Assembly (NCBI GenBank): GCA_021608145.1 | Contig: JAKIHM010000001.1 | Coordinates: 1 to 64,000 of the forward strand | DNA: 64,000 bases | Direction: 5' to 3' | DNA from: Thermovorax subterraneus | Lineage (GTDB): Bacteria > Bacillota > Thermosediminibacteria > Thermosediminibacterales > Thermosediminibacteraceae | Shown: piece after piece, positions 11,012-49,695 of the stretch | Layout: each line of letters opens with the position of its first letter | Numbering within the stretch: position 1 is the first letter of the stretch | Made by a program: the position numbers and the translations under genes | The notes under the pieces: generated by a model | Seen by the model: the letters and a program-made list of their open reading frames with translations, nothing else | What the model was told of the DNA's origin: nothing | The model's database searches: none

Positions 11012-12561
<1,550 letters not shown>

Positions 12562-12644: not shown

Positions 12645-12902
12645 TCATCTCGTCAAGGGGTGCGGTAGAGGCGCGGTGTATCAAGAGTAACCCGTGGAGA
12701 CGGCGGCCGGTGAAGCGGGCGAAAGGGGTCACCGCCGAAGTCCTGCAGCCGGCGGGCTGCTGGGCTGGGACTGCATCGAAGAGGTGCAGTACTGTCACCT
12801 GAAGCTGCCCGGGCTTCAGGTGGAGCGCTATCACACGCCGGGGGAAGGGAGGGTAGTGTTATTTGACCCCTAACGGCTGTGGTAGTACTACAGCCGTTTT
12901 TT
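12645..12902 (+). ncRNA. Lysine riboswitch (L-box) with terminator
   Basis: The core matches the lysine-sensing L-box: TGCGGTAGAGGCGC (12661-12674), AAGAGTAACC (12683-12692), ACCGCCGAAG (12731-12740), GGGCTGGGACTGCATCGAAG (12762-12781) and GTACTGTCAC (12789-12798). The expression platform is a terminator: AACGGCTGT (12872-12880) with ACAGCCGTT (12890-12898) and a T run. Lysine binding should stop transcription. The usual targets (lysC, lysA, transporter genes) are not present: only a 51-codon frame follows, so the switch appears orphaned. Confidence 0.88.
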
Positions 12903-35716: not shown

Positions 35717-35882
35717 ATATTAGAAGTGGCAAAAGGCGGAAACAACAGTTGAAGACAACAATACAAAATGACATAATCTTAACTAAGTGATTATTGATGT
35801 TGTTGAGTCTACAAAAAGTTAAAGAAACATACGACATCAGCAGACGTAGCCAGGATTTACGGACAAAGAGGTGGCAAAAGCC

Positions 35883-37334
35883 ATGATAACAATACAGGCT
35901 AAACTTATCTTCAAAAGCGAGGAAGACGAGCAGAAAGTAGCGGATTTAATGAGAAGATGGTCATCCTGCACAAGATTCGCATATAACAGACTTTTAGAAG
36001 GTAAAAGCAGAAATGAACTCAAAAGAGAACTGCAAGAGATTTTCAGTTTAAATTCGAGGTATGTAGATGATGCGATAATGAAGGCAAAAAGCGTTCTAGA
36101 GTCTTGTAAAGAAAGAGGCGAAAATCCAGGCAAAGTTATTTTCGGTGGCAGGAGTTTGTTTGAAAAGCCAAAGAAACAACACATAAATGGAAATGCATAT
36201 AAGAAGCTGAAACACGAGTGGCAAGAAAGAAGGAAAGGCAATCTTTATTCGAGAGGGGACAAGAGCAAGAAAGGGAATCTCAACACAAGGATCGAGATAG
36301 ATGAAAACGGTGCTGTACTTAGAATCAACGTAGGTGAAAGAAAATATGCATATGCAAGGATACAAGCGGGATGGAAGAAAGAAAAGAGCCGTGAGGAATT
36401 ACTGGAAGCAATCAGCACTTTTGGACAGCCTTATTCTGTAGAGCTAAAGCTCAAAAACGGCAAGGTATATGCTTACTTTACGATTGAAGAAAACTTCCCG
36501 GAAGTTGCGGTAACAAAGGAAAATGGAGTCATAGGAATAGACATCAACGCATACCCGGACCACATAGCATGGTCGGAAACGAATGAGAATGGTAATCTTA
36601 TAAGTTATGGCAGAATACCGATGCCTGAACTTACAAGCAGCAATTCAAATAAGAGGGAATATTACAGATGGCAGTATGCCCACGAAGTAGTAAGGCTAGC
36701 AGAAGAAAAGAAAAAAGCAATAGCAATCGAGAGATTGGACATAAGAGACAAAGGGAAAAGAGGAGACTTTTCGGGGAGGAAATCGAGAAGGATAAGGCAC
36801 AGCTTTAGCTACAGGTCACTTTTGGAAAAAATCAAGGTATTAGCGAAGAGGAAGGGTATACAAGTCATAGAGGTCAATCCTTCATATACATCAGTGATAG
36901 GGATGCTGAAGTATGCACCGCAGTATATGATAAGCAAGGACGTAGCAGCAGCGTATGTCATAGCAAGAAGGGGACTTGGGTTAAAAGAGCAAATTCCCGA
37001 AGGGTATATGGCAATTCTAAAAGATTTAGATGCTGACGAATTGGGGGAATTAAAAGAGCACGTAAAGAGGACGGTAAAAAGCAAACAACTAAAGAAAAGG
37101 CAACTAAAGGAGATAGACGAAGCAATAAAACTAATACAAAGCCTTGGGAGTGAGGCGGGGAAGGCACTAATACCTCTGGATGGAACAAGTATTAGTGCCT
37201 GTAGCGAAGGCTATAAACTCTGGCGAGTTCTCAAGGTAGCGGTGGTGACGCCACTCTCCCCTGGGAAAGTTTTAAGGGACGTCTCTGTCCTGAAGGGAGT
37301 ATTACATTCAGGGCAAGTGGGGAGACCCGGGTAA
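35883..37334 (+). CDS. tnpB: TnpB-like RNA-guided nuclease of an IS200/IS605-type element
   Basis: About 483 residues. The RuvC-like active site is complete: Asp in GVIGIDINAYPDHIAW, Glu in AIAIERLDI, and Asp in SKDVAAAYVIARRG. The usual CxxC...CxxC zinc finger between the last two is replaced by NPSYTSVIGMLKYAPQYMI, so this is a variant class. ATG 35883 is chosen because AAGAGGTG ends ten bases before it. No tnpA gene is present, so the element cannot move alone. The last 50 or so codons lie in a region that also looks like a structured RNA that should serve as guide scaffold. Confidence 0.85.
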   Translation: MITIQAKLIFKSEEDEQKVADLMRRWSSCTRFAYNRLLEGKSRNELKRELQEIFSLNSRYVDDAIMKAKSVLESCKERGENPGKVIFGGRSLFEKPKKQHINGNAYKKLKHEWQERRKGNLYSRGDKSKKGNLNTRIEIDENGAVLRINVGERKYAYARIQAGWKKEKSREELLEAISTFGQPYSVELKLKNGKVYAYFTIEENFPEVAVTKENGVIGIDINAYPDHIAWSETNENGNLISYGRIPMPELTSSNSNKREYYRWQYAHEVVRLAEEKKKAIAIERLDIRDKGKRGDFSGRKSRRIRHSFSYRSLLEKIKVLAKRKGIQVIEVNPSYTSVIGMLKYAPQYMISKDVAAAYVIARRGLGLKEQIPEGYMAILKDLDADELGELKEHVKRTVKSKQLKKRQLKEIDEAIKLIQSLGSEAGKALIPLDGTSISACSEGYKLWRVLKVAVVTPLSPGKVLRDVSVLKGVLHSGQVGRPG

Positions 37335-37346
37335 GGGGCGCGAGTT

Positions 37347-37484
37347 CCTGCTTCTTGGGGCAGGGGCTATGGGAGTGCTTGAATACCGCCTGCTGGGAAT
37401 GAGCACTCTCTGAAAGGGCGGAATACAAATAGCCCAGCTGTCTAAACTGTATGATTTATAGTTTTGTACAGTTTAGACAACCAG
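37347..37484 (+). ncRNA. Pseudoknotted element-end RNA upstream of rho (copy A)
   Basis: Stems: CCTGC/GCAGG (37347-37351, 37360-37364), GGGCTAT/ATAGCCC (37364-37370, 37429-37435) and GAGTGCT/AGCACTC (37373-37379, 37402-37408). CCGCC (37386-37390) in the loop pairs with GGCGG (37417-37421) as a pseudoknot. A 13-bp terminal hairpin TGTCTAAACTGTA/TACAGTTTAGACA (37439-37451, 37467-37479) follows, then ACCAGG. It resembles a TnpB omega/re-RNA scaffold plus right end. A second copy lies at 48412. The final ACCAGGTG sits 8 bases before the start codon of rho. Confidence 0.7.
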
Positions 37485-37492
37485 GTGAGAGA

Positions 37493-38758
37493 TTGCTTGC
37501 ACAGGAACTGGAAAAGAAGACCATCGCCCAGCTTCAAGAAATAGCAAGGGAAAAGAAGATTCCCGGATACTACAAATACAGGAAGAAGGAGCTTATAGTA
37601 AAGATAATAGAAGCTATGGCGGCCGAGTCAGGAGAGAGCATAGCAGAAGGAGTCCTCGAGGTAATGCCGGACGGATACGGTTTTTTGAGGATAGAAAATT
37701 ACCTTCCCTCCGATGAAGACATATACGTCTCGCCTTCACAAATCCGACGATTCCACCTGCGCACAGGGGACCTGGTCAGGGGGAGGATTAGGCCTCCGAA
37801 AGAGGGCGAAAAATACAGAGCCCTGCTGCAGGTCCACGAGGTAAACGGCCTAGATCCGGAACACGCCGTAAGCAGGTTTCACTTCGATTCGTTAACTCCC
37901 ATTTTCCCAGAGCCCAGGCTCACACTAGAGCACGACCCCGAAGACCTTTCCACCAGGATAATCGATATAATTTCTCCCATCGGAAAGGGACAGAGAGCTC
38001 TCATAGTTTCCCCGCCTAAAGCGGGCAAAACCATGATGTTAAAAAATATTGCCAACGCTCTTTCGAAAAATCACCCGGACCTGGAACTTATAGTACTGTT
38101 GATAGACGAAAGGCCCGAAGAAGTAACCGATATGAGGCGTTCAGTAGATGGTGATGTGGTGAGTTCAACTTTCGACGAACCGCCGGAAAATCACCTGCGG
38201 GTTGCCGACATGGTGCTGGAGCGCGCTCAGAGGCTCGTGGAAAGCAAAAAGGATGTAGTTATTCTGCTGGATAGCATAACGCGCCTTGCGAGAGCCAACA
38301 ACCTGGTGGTACCGCCGACGGGGAGGACGTTGTCCGGTGGGTTGGACCCGAGTGCATTACATAAACCCAAGCGGTTTTTCGGAGCTGCGCGCAATATAGA
38401 AGAGGGCGGAAGCCTCACCATAATCGCTACAGCTCTGGTGGAAACAGGAAGCCGTATGGATGATGTCATTTACGAAGAATTCAAGGGGACCGGCAATATG
38501 GAAATTCATCTGGACAGAAAATTAGCGGAGCGCAGAATTTATCCGGCTATAGATATAAAGAGGTCCGGCACCCGCCGCGAGGAATTGCTCCTTTCTAAAG
38601 AAGAGCTAGAAGCCGTTTGGGTGTTGAGGAAGGCCCTAGCTCCAATGGATACCGTTGAAGCAGCAACCACCCTCATAAACAGGTTGAAAAAAACCCGCAC
38701 CAACAGGGAATTTTTAGAAAATCTAGCCTCAATGATTAACGAATTGCACCTGACTTAA
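37493..38758 (+). CDS. rho: Transcription termination factor Rho
   Basis: A 421-residue hexameric helicase. The N-terminal SAP-like domain (about 8-38), the OB RNA-binding domain with [11 protein letters not shown], Walker [12 protein letters not shown], Walker [17 protein letters not shown] and the R-loop [11 protein letters not shown] are all readable. The start is taken as TTG 37493 by comparison with other Rho N-termini. The only ribosome-binding sequence is AGGTGAG, which spans the end of the TnpB element. The gene has no native promoter visible; transcription must come from inside the element or be read through. The common rho partner rpmE is not next to it. Confidence 0.93.
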
Positions 38759-47101: not shown

Positions 47102-48196
47102 TCATAATGTAAGCTTTAGTTCCTGCTTCTTTCTATGTCGTTCTATAGCCAGTTCTATCAGACGGTCTATGAGCTCGCTATAAGAAAGGCCCGAGGCCTC
47201 CCACATCTTTGGGTACATGCTTATTTTTGTAAATCCCGGAATCGTATTTACCTCGTTTATATAAGTCACACCTGTCACCTTGCTCAATAAAAAGTCCACC
47301 CTTGCCATGCCCGAGCAGTCTAGGGCCTTAAAAGCCTTTACAGCAAGGTCCCGAATTTTCTCTGTTTCTTCTGTGGATAAGGGCGCGGGTATCAAGAGTT
47401 TCGATTTTCCGCCGTCGAAGTATTTGGCGGTGTAGCTGTAGAATTCCTCGCTTGGTATGATTTCACCCGGTAAGGATGCTTTTGGGTCATCGTTCCCCAA
47501 GACCGAGCATTCGATTTCCCTTGCGTGGACAAATCTTTCGACGAGCAGCTTTCTGTCGAATTCTGCAGCCAACATGATTGCCTTTTTAAGTTCTTCGCGG
47601 TCATGGGCTTTGCTTACTCCCACGCTGGAGCCTAAGTTTGCAGGTTTTACAAAGCATGGGTACCCGAAGGATTGTTCAACTTCCATTACCATGTCCGAAA
47701 GTCCATGGGGGAGGTCCTTTTTGTAAAAGACCTTGAAGTCCACCACCGGCAAGCCTTCCTGTTTCAAGATTTTTTTCGTGAAAACCTTATCCATGCATAC
47801 GGCTGAAGAACCGACACCGCAACTCACGTAAGGTATGTTCATGAGCTCAAAAAGTCCCTGGACGGTTCCGTCTTCGCCCCGTGGGCCGTGGAGAACGGGG
47901 AATATTACGTCAAAATAATATCTTGTTTCGATGCCGTTATTTAGGGCAATTGCACACTTGAATCCAGTGTCTGGGGGAAGAAAGACCGGTATTGCTTCTT
48001 GTATCCAACTTCCATCCCGAATCTTTGATATGTCTCCGAAATACACATGCCAGCGGCCGTCCTTGGTTATTCCGATGGGAATAATGTCATACTTTGATTT
48101 GTCCATTACGTTTATTATCGAAAATGCCGACATCAGCGATACTTCGTGCTCCCCCGACTGCCCGCCGAAAACAACGCCTACCTTCAATTTTTCCAT
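47102..48196 (-). CDS. ddl: D-alanine--D-alanine ligase
   Basis: A 364-residue ATP-grasp ligase that joins two D-Ala for peptidoglycan. Landmarks are VVFGGQSGEHEVSLMSA, VLHGPRGEDGTVQGLFELMN, the ATP loop KPANLGSSVGVSKAHDREEL, GEIIPSEEFYSYTAKYFDGG, and the metal end RVDFLL...YINEVNTIPGFTKIS. Whether the product is vancomycin-sensitive (Tyr in YSYTAKY) is consistent with D-Ala-D-Ala. It is monocistronic on the minus strand. Confidence 0.95.
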   Translation of the reverse strand: MEKLKVGVVFGGQSGEHEVSLMSAFSIINVMDKSKYDIIPIGITKDGRWHVYFGDISKIRDGSWIQEAIPVFLPPDTGFKCAIALNNGIETRYYFDVIFPVLHGPRGEDGTVQGLFELMNIPYVSCGVGSSAVCMDKVFTKKILKQEGLPVVDFKVFYKKDLPHGLSDMVMEVEQSFGYPCFVKPANLGSSVGVSKAHDREELKKAIMLAAEFDRKLLVERFVHAREIECSVLGNDDPKASLPGEIIPSEEFYSYTAKYFDGGKSKLLIPAPLSTEETEKIRDLAVKAFKALDCSGMARVDFLLSKVTGVTYINEVNTIPGFTKISMYPKMWEASGLSYSELIDRLIELAIERHRKKQELKLTL

Positions 48197-48411
48197 AAAA
48201 ACACTCCCTTTTTACTTTCGATATGCCAAGCAAGGCACTTTTACTAATTTACTAATATTTTATTTCTCATGCTCTGGTAAAATTAAAAGGTTCAAAAAAG
48301 ATTATAGCAAAATGTGAGGCTAATATATAGTTCCCATAAGTTATTTTTTCCGCGAAAAATTCCGAATCAATGGGGTAATAAGTTGTGATATAATCATATA
48401 AGACTTAAGTA

Positions 48412-48538
48412 CCTGCTTTCTTGGCAGGGGCAGAAGGCTTCCTAAATACCGCCTGCTGGGACTGGGAAGCCTAAAAAAGGCGGTAAAAAATACCCCAGCC
48501 ATCTAAACTGAGCGGTTATGTTCGGTTTAGATGACCAG
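48412..48538 (+). ncRNA. Pseudoknotted RNA upstream of an alcohol dehydrogenase (copy B, no tnpB)
   Basis: It has the same architecture as the RNA at 37347: CCTGC/GCAGG (48412-48416, 48424-48428), GGCTTCC/GGAAGCC (48436-48442, 48465-48471), pseudoknot CCGCC/GGCGG (48449-48453, 48479-48483), GGGG/CCCC (48427-48430, 48493-48496) and the terminal hairpin CATCTAAACTGA/TCGGTTTAGATG (48500-48511, 48522-48533) plus ACCAGG. Stem sequences differ from copy A by compensatory changes. No TnpB reading frame is present in the 215 bases before it, which hold no other feature I can support. The terminal ACCAGGT forms the Shine-Dalgarno of the gene starting at 48547. Confidence 0.7.
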
Positions 48539-48546
48539 GTTATAGT

Positions 48547-49695
48547 ATGGATTTCGGCTTTTACCTACCAACTAAAATATTGTTTGGCCGGGGTAAAATC
48601 AGTGAAGTAGGCCTTCATGCAAAGGAATTGGGCAGGAGAGCCTTAATAGTTACAGGCAAATCCAGCGCTAAAAAGACGGGCAACCTGGAGAAACTTGTAA
48701 GGAGCCTCGGCGAAAATGGCATAGAATGGATTTTATTCGATAAAGTTAAATACAATCCATTTACCACCGACATAGATGAAGGAGGAGCTTTTGCGAAGGA
48801 AAACAAGGTGGATCTAGTGATAGGCTTAGGCGGTGGAACTGCCATGGACACCGCAAAAGGGATTGCTTTTGCTGCACTCAATGATGGACCCATGGCGGAT
48901 TACATGGAAGGCAAATCTGGGGAGAAGGCTTTGCCCATAATCCTTATACCCACCACTGCTGGCACGGGAAGCGAGGCCAACAACATAGCAGTCATGACGA
49001 ATCCCTACACGATGGCGAAGAAGGGTTTTAGAAATCCGTCGATTTTTGCGAGGGTTTCCATCGTCGACCCGGAGCTAATGGATTCCATGCCGCCTAAAAT
49101 TACTGCGTCAACGGGAATAGACGCCTTTTTCCATGCATTGGAATCCTATATAAGTTTGAGAAGCAATCCTTTGACAGAGAGCATTTCTTTGAAAGCTATG
49201 GAGCTGATCAGTGAGAGTATAAAAAAAGCGATTTACGAGCCCGATAAGGAAAGCCGCGATAAAATGGCTCTTGCAAGCACTATGGCCGGCATATCCTTGG
49301 GTCAGGCGGGGGTTTGTGCACTCCATGCTATGGAACATCCCCTTAGCAGCTATTTTAACGCCCACCACGGCGAAGGTTTAGCACCCCTGGCAGAAGCATT
49401 TTTGAACTTCGTAAAACCATATGTTTTTGAAAAACTTGCAAAGGTGGCCGAAGTCATGAAAATAGATACGGCTAACCTTTCAAAAGAGCAAGCAGCTGAA
49501 AAGACGATAGATGCCATCGTTGGGATGATAAAAGACCTTGGTCTGCCCGAAAGCATTTCGACCTTTGGAGTTAAAAAAGAAGATATACAAAAGCTGGCTT
49601 CAAACGTAAAAGATTACATGGCCCACAACTTATCAGCAACGCCAGGGAATCTAACCTTTGAAGACATATTGAAAATTTACGAGGAGTCAATGTGA
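48547..49695 (+). CDS. Iron-containing alcohol dehydrogenase
   Basis: A 382-residue group III dehydrogenase with GLGGGTAMDTAKG for NAD(P), PTTAGTGSEANN, and metal ligands in GIDAFFHALESY (Asp and His), ALHAMEHPLSS (His) and FNAHHGEG (His). It differs from the copy at 5914 and resembles 1,3-propanediol/lactaldehyde-type enzymes. ATG 48547 follows the RNA element by 13 bases, and the ribosome-binding sequence AGGT comes from the end of that element. Confidence 0.92.
   Translation: MDFGFYLPTKILFGRGKISEVGLHAKELGRRALIVTGKSSAKKTGNLEKLVRSLGENGIEWILFDKVKYNPFTTDIDEGGAFAKENKVDLVIGLGGGTAMDTAKGIAFAALNDGPMADYMEGKSGEKALPIILIPTTAGTGSEANNIAVMTNPYTMAKKGFRNPSIFARVSIVDPELMDSMPPKITASTGIDAFFHALESYISLRSNPLTESISLKAMELISESIKKAIYEPDKESRDKMALASTMAGISLGQAGVCALHAMEHPLSSYFNAHHGEGLAPLAEAFLNFVKPYVFEKLAKVAEVMKIDTANLSKEQAAEKTIDAIVGMIKDLGLPESISTFGVKKEDIQKLASNVKDYMAHNLSATPGNLTFEDILKIYEESM

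Follow-up and report, generated by a model that had tools for sequence, protein, structure and literature searches.

In the 64,000-nucleotide stretch of Thermovorax subterraneus DNA that we analysed (the window), the gene for an iron-containing alcohol dehydrogenase (ADH) is directly preceded by an RNA, copy B, which is evidently what is left of an IS607-type tnpA-tnpB element after deletion of the remainder: its right end, or guide-RNA scaffold. We think it probable that this right end has been exapted as a cis-acting 5′ leader of ADH with its fold kept by selection; the leader may also control ADH. A preliminary description of the DNA had placed the RNA at 48400-48560. The RNA does lie there, within narrower limits: homology to other copies begins at 48408, the right-end tail at 48535-48539 is the Shine-Dalgarno (SD) sequence of ADH, and ADH starts at 48547. 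The parts of the locus are as follows.

48386-48394, forward strand: extended −10 box TGATATAAT of the predicted ADH transcript (direct reading; conserved in relatives)
48408-48539, forward strand: copy B, orphan right-end RNA and putative ADH 5′ leader (similarity to other copies, alignment, covariance model)
48412-48428, forward strand: 5′ hairpin P0, CCTGC/GCAGG (copy alignment)
48435-48472, forward strand: stem P1, 48435-48444 with 48463-48472 (strong covariation in the family)
48449-48483, forward strand: pseudoknot helix P2, CCGCC (48449-48453) with GGCGG (48479-48483) (invariant)
48455-48499, forward strand: pseudoknot helix P3, GCUGGG (48455-48460) with CCCAGC (48494-48499) (alignment; compensatory change in G005)
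48500-48533, forward strand: terminal hairpin P4, element right end (copy alignment)
48535-48539, forward strand: CCAGG, element end and now the ADH SD (rho and rimM empty sites; spacing across copies)
48547-49695, forward strand: iron-containing ADH, read from the leader (Pfam PF00465/PF25137)

Base 48540 is the first of the would-be TnpB guide at copy B. The −10 box predicts a start of the ADH transcript at about 48401, the 5′ edge of the RNA, and copy B would form the very 5′ end of that transcript. A simple promoter scan upstream of ADH found no −35 box; the TATAAT and its context are conserved in the genome under study (G000), its sister species (G004) and two other sampled genomes (G003 and G002; all further G numbers are likewise sampled genomes), whether the RNA is present or absent. 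Upstream of copy B, ddl starts at 48196. The intervening sequence (48197-48407) aligned to tnpB no better than shuffles did, confirming the earlier statement that neither tnpB nor a left end lies between ddl and copy B; it is the ancestral ddl-ADH promoter region, and can be aligned to relatives without the RNA.

A similarity search and a covariance model search detected 19 copies in G000, namely copy B, copy A and 17 more. Most of them are without tnpB, and copy B is therefore no rare orphan. It matched copy A with E=2.6e-8 and the best other copy with E=3.8e-22. In an 18-copy alignment, standard pairs occupied 88.4% of cells versus 31-49% with slid partners, and changes on both sides were seen in 9 of the 11 pairs of P1 and 4 of the 10 pairs of P4. 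Together with the match to copy A, the retention of pairs above the level of slid partners and the two-sided changes show that the stems and the pseudoknot are real and have been kept in copy B; the original reading of a TnpB-type RNA with its pairs retained was right. Both P2 and P3 are interleaved with P1 and with one another. In the same alignment P2 (CCGCC/GGCGG) and most of P3 (GCUGGG/CCCAGC) did not vary at all, so that their support is invariance, not covariation. P0 was retained only in copy B and in copies with tnpB or a tnpB remnant. About 6 nt separate P4 from the element border, which places a 3′ stem-loop within about 10 nt of that border, as looked for in a TnpB guide RNA. No Rfam family matched the RNA at gathering or relaxed thresholds, and the RAGATH-18 covariance model gave no match at E<=10 nor at E<=2; a weak 19-bit match to RAGATH-26 (cut-off 86) was rejected as chance-like.

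About 140 copies were found in 18 sampled genomes of Clostridia and Aquificota. Pattern scans and model searches located the RNA in Fervidicola ferrireducens, Caldanaerobacter, Thermoanaerobacter, Thermosyntropha and Aquificota; many pattern matches in GC-rich genomes, which had no A-rich joint or P1, were dropped as chance. The Aquificota copies precede rplU, fusA, rpoA, mreB, ftsH, hfq, acpP, grpE and others (genes named by N-terminal sequence). One Aquificota genome contains 16 RNAs and two tnpB genes; in contrast, another contains five RNAs and no tnpB. The tnpB-free G061 has five intact copies, before rpoA and others. The RNA was also observed in other families of the same phylum, in G042 (L129-L134, six copies, tnpB not found) and G056 (L135), which probably acquired it by horizontal transfer.

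In copy A and the other whole elements tnpB is directly followed, at the right end, by the RNA, whereas copy B is without tnpB. The parts of copy A in the window are these.

35740-37485, forward strand: copy A, a complete element in the rho SD, directly behind AAAAGGCGG (the empty allele has AAAAGGAGG) (whole-element left ends, empty alleles)
35797-35902, forward strand: relic of an IS607-type tnpA, frameshifted and with a large part of its interior deleted (comparison with full-length tnpA)
35871-37334, forward strand: tnpB, 487 aa (homologues, RuvC residues, model)
37343-37486, forward strand: copy A RNA, right end, in the rho leader (copy alignment, empty site)

The CCAGG of copy A occupies 37481-37485, and the TTG start codon of rho is at 37493. 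(In the ORF list rho begins earlier, at 37451; judged by its relatives, the gene starts at this TTG, downstream of the element's CCAGG.) The TnpB matches TIGR01765/TIGR01766, and its RuvC residues D224, E287 and D357 are invariant in 16 homologues. Its AlphaFold model is weak (pLDDT 59) and gave only a coarse fold match, to Cas12f and ISFba1 TnpB. A TldR-like repressor was ruled out, since the three catalytic residues are intact. IS607 elements are defined by a GG-containing insertion site with GG at both borders, and a serine recombinase TnpA with a MerR-type HTH beside tnpB is another of their marks. Such borders are seen at rho and rimM (GGAGG/element...CCAGG/), and the elements of G056 and G065 have a full-length tnpA of 197-202 aa, with resolvase and MerR domains, beside tnpB; by these features the element is IS607-like. 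An intact tnpA more than 50% identical to that of the element family was not found in G000. Other TnpB families (563 and 496 aa) occur in G000 at C11:157265, C11:275430, C42, C10, C19 and C5, some of them accompanied by an intact IS607 tnpA that shares about 42-49% identity with that of the element.

The target of the element was read from empty alleles. At rho, the empty allele of G003 is AAAAGGAGG/TGAGAGATTG and the G000 allele is AAAAGGCGG-element-CCAGG/TGAGAGATTG; at rimM, the empty allele of G003 and G004 is GATAGGAGG/CTTTCCC and that of G000 is GATAGGAGG-element-CCAGG/CTTTCCC. Compared in this way, the alleles show insertion directly 3′ of the SD sequence GGAGG, with the CCAGG at the right end becoming the new SD for a start codon that has been displaced. 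At the left, whole elements start ..ACAACAGTTG, and a GGAGG-like sequence precedes them in nearly all cases, Aquificota included, one exception being C29 of G000.

Because the element targets SD sequences and brings a replacement, its copies adjoin start codons. Nearly all copies end 4-12 nt upstream of one. In G000 a gene start lies within about 20 nt of the RNA for 18 of the 19 copies, a count that takes in a glycosyltransferase gene that is broken and selD, where a selenocysteine codon is read through; the downstream genes include rho, rimM, selD, radA, comEC, yjbQ, ltaE and ADH, all but rho and ADH named from N-terminal sequences. Across ten genomes an ORF start was located −14 to +12 from the RNA end in 93 of 102 copies (a negative spacing being an in-frame start inside the RNA), and a spacing of 6 was by far the commonest. 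By a rough estimate from about 2,400 genes in 2.45 Mb, the chance of such placement is about 0.5% per copy. The downstream genes have no common function or pathway, and ADH as a target pathway was discarded when a Hydrogenothermaceae gene first resembling ADH turned out by sequence to be rpoA. In two cases (L003, at C33:56669 of G000, and L154 in G003) the RNA is directly before selD with apparent read-through of an in-frame UGA (selenocysteine). New SDs, AAGGAGG among them, are found in several orphans; sequestration of the SD by the P3 strand (CUGG/CCAG) was considered and dropped, as orphans with other SDs lose the complementarity.

How copy B arose could be followed in relatives, the preliminary description having proposed a comparison of orthologous loci. 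The ADH orthologue of G004 has the same RNA in the same place, and those of G003, G002, G005, G006, G007 and G008 have none. The G004 leader contains 83 further bases, the end of which is collinear with the 3′ end of tnpB (score 35, 0/1000 shuffles). Tested against nine tnpB tails, this remnant gave 0/1000 shuffles for five and <=5/1000 for the rest; only this collinear tail test was significant, local alignment of the remnant with all of tnpB being not significant. The presence of a tnpB 3′ remnant in the G004 leader indicates that copy B is a deletion derivative of a whole element. The 83 bases are missing from G000, and this loss, with the ancestral −10 box just upstream of the RNA, suggests that copy B is the 5′ leader of the ADH mRNA. 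Two observations in relatives had been named in advance as speaking against a functional RNA, a degraded tnpB and random decay of the stems; the former was made, as the decayed tnpB 3′ end in G004, but the latter was not. The ADH gene itself (48547-49695; L112) has a fourfold-site identity of 0.45 between G000 and G004, versus about 0.7-0.8 for other orthologues of the pair, possibly through recombination that replaced the body of the gene in one of the two lineages.

Whether an orphan right end is kept for its fold was judged from orphan leaders shared by descent, which include those of an AmmeMemoRadiSam protein gene (eight genomes, four genera), yjbQ, ltaE, an amidase gene and others; the ADH leader is shared by two genomes. 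Any two genomes share 21-23 of the 23 core bases of the AmmeMemoRadiSam leader, while the fourfold sites of the gene have an identity of 0.31-0.46 between genera, and the two differing bases constitute a U-A to C-G change in P3. The G005 leader of this gene has P1 rebuilt with new pairs, seven pairs being changed on both sides (0/500 shuffles). Between the tnpB-free G006 and G008 the AmmeMemoRadiSam RNA is identical at 77 of 79 positions, versus 70 matches and 23 mismatches in the 100 bases upstream. The cores of the yjbQ, ltaE and amidase leaders are likewise invariant or compensated while silent sites have diverged. RNAs are present in G002, G005, G006, G008, G042 and G061, in which no TnpB of the element family was detected at E<=1 (G002 and G042 are incomplete). 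These comparisons show selection on the fold of sibling orphan leaders without the transposon or a cognate TnpB. Other orphans have decayed: the PNP, AOR and G007 phosphatase leaders have lost pairs, and P2 or P3 is gone in some. L168, L196, L171 and L198, the PNP and AOR leaders in which strands of the pseudoknot have decayed, are suited as negative controls when orphan RNAs are examined for selection. For copy B, G000 and G004 differ at 9 positions and match at 121 within the RNA, against 6 mismatches and 182 matches in the upstream region. The core is unchanged, one P4 pair is broken in G004, and the RNA as a whole has evolved no slower than its surroundings; the case for copy B thus depends on the sibling leaders, and selection on copy B itself is only moderately supported.

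That rate comparison would also be expected if copy B were a passive scar, the right end staying in place since its loss would silence the gene, and the fold being functionless with its decay pending. The loss of P2 or P3 and the new SDs in some orphans agree with such a scar; however, ACCGCCUGCUGGG is not needed for an SD alone, and the AmmeMemoRadiSam, yjbQ, ltaE and amidase cores stayed invariant or compensated despite diverged silent sites, and we give the passive scar perhaps one chance in four's worth of credence, that is, we regard it as rather unlikely. A guide acting in trans, which the preliminary description had offered beside a cis-leader, is more doubtful still. Copy B would be loaded onto the TnpBs of G000 and its guide, TTATAGTATGGATTTCGG..., would direct cleavage of insertion-free ADH alleles, keeping the scar in the population; the predicted substrate of TnpB with copy B is GGAGG-TTATAGTATGG DNA. 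The scaffold stops at the element border with the would-be guide adjoining it, the TnpBs of G000 have intact RuvC residues, and an allele without the insertion would have GGAGG, which resembles the AGGAG motif of IS607 TnpBs (PMC11061315). Yet orphans are conserved in G005, G006, G008 and G061, where no such TnpB was found at E<=1, which a trans guide fails to explain, and the scar, its own site having no GGAGG, would be immune without a guide. Such a role in G000 is possible but not needed. The cis-leader alternative fared better, copy B lying behind a conserved −10 box with its tail as the SD.

The reverse order of events, in which a transposon captured a pre-existing riboswitch-like leader RNA of thermophiles, we consider highly improbable. 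It would account for tnpB-less RNAs before essential Aquificota genes (rplU, fusA, rpoA, hfq), and the invariance of the core nucleotides resembles that of a binding site; but the RNA is at the fixed right end of whole elements, the empty sites show that it arrived with the element, and no pathway is common to the downstream genes.

Our preferred explanation, exaptation of a right end as a cis-acting leader, would proceed as follows. An IS607-type element inserts 3′ of GGAGG and its CCAGG right end replaces the SD. Loss of tnpB would then leave the ADH promoter just upstream, and the RNA would become the mRNA 5′ leader. Maintenance of the fold without a cognate TnpB, seen in the sibling orphans and presumed for copy B, would reflect action in cis on its own mRNA, most likely through a structured pseudoknot-hairpin that would leave the SD and start codon accessible and protect or adjust the 5′ end. 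In cells that have TnpB, the protein may also bind or cut the leader, because it processes RNA of this kind from mRNA; in cells without tnpB, the leaders would have to be maintained by something else. The invariant letters of the pseudoknot suggest a specific partner. More tentatively, and with somewhat less than even confidence, we propose that exaptation of TnpB scaffolds has happened repeatedly in Clostridia and Aquificota and yielded a new class of cis-leaders, seeded by an SD-targeting transposon before any gene, essential ones included, and that a TnpB-independent partner (host protein, ribosome or ligand) recognises the invariant ACCGCCUGCUGGG pseudoknot.

SD-like target motifs and orphan RNAs are already known in kind. 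IS607 TnpBs with a RAGATH-18-derived reRNA have the target motif AGGAG or GAGGG, and 64% of RAGATH-18 RNAs adjoin an IS607 TnpB while 36% do not (PMC11061315). That system resembles ours in its MerR-resolvase TnpA, an RNA that lies downstream of tnpB as a separate unit, two pseudoknots along with several stems, an SD-like motif and many orphan RNAs (PMC11061315). Unlike it, the RNA described here is not matched by the RAGATH-18 model, and the 487-aa TnpB matches ISFba1 in fold but shows no clear similarity to it in sequence. The main text of PMC11061315 mentions neither Shine-Dalgarno, ribosome nor start codon; nor, as far as that paper was searched, does it mention conserved leaders. The omega RNAs of IS200/IS605 elements (AmaTnpB, ISDra2) are also right-end scaffolds with a 3′ stem-loop near the guide, and TnpB can process omega RNA from its own mRNA (PMC10278001); in contrast, their motifs are mostly AT-rich, with only a small G-rich subset, and the scaffold commonly overlaps tnpB, whereas copy B is tnpB-less (PMC10278001). 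In domesticated TnpBs (cf. TldR) parts of TnpB have likewise been put to gene control, but there the protein is kept for guided DNA action in trans, whereas at copy B the RNA was kept and the protein lost; moreover, TldR has lost the RuvC catalytic residues, whereas the TnpBs of the element family keep the triad. The guide-RNA hairpin of the IsrB omega RNA includes an SD and may affect translation, but that SD belongs to isrB itself and not, as here, to unrelated host genes (PMC9581776). Among open-access papers, as far as these can be searched, the RNA family, the empty-site proof of a ribosome-binding-site target whose SD is replaced, and the conservation of orphan leaders over long times are new.

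If these proposals are true, a transposon can get into essential genes without harm if it targets ribosome-binding sites and brings its own, and the RNA half of an RNA-guided nuclease can be domesticated, not only the protein half (TldR, Cas12). The family is defined and testable: there are empty sites and hosts free of tnpB, and one relative, Fervidicola ferrireducens, is in culture. The same window also contains a T-box leader and a lysine riboswitch, at 11027-11233 and 12658-12838.
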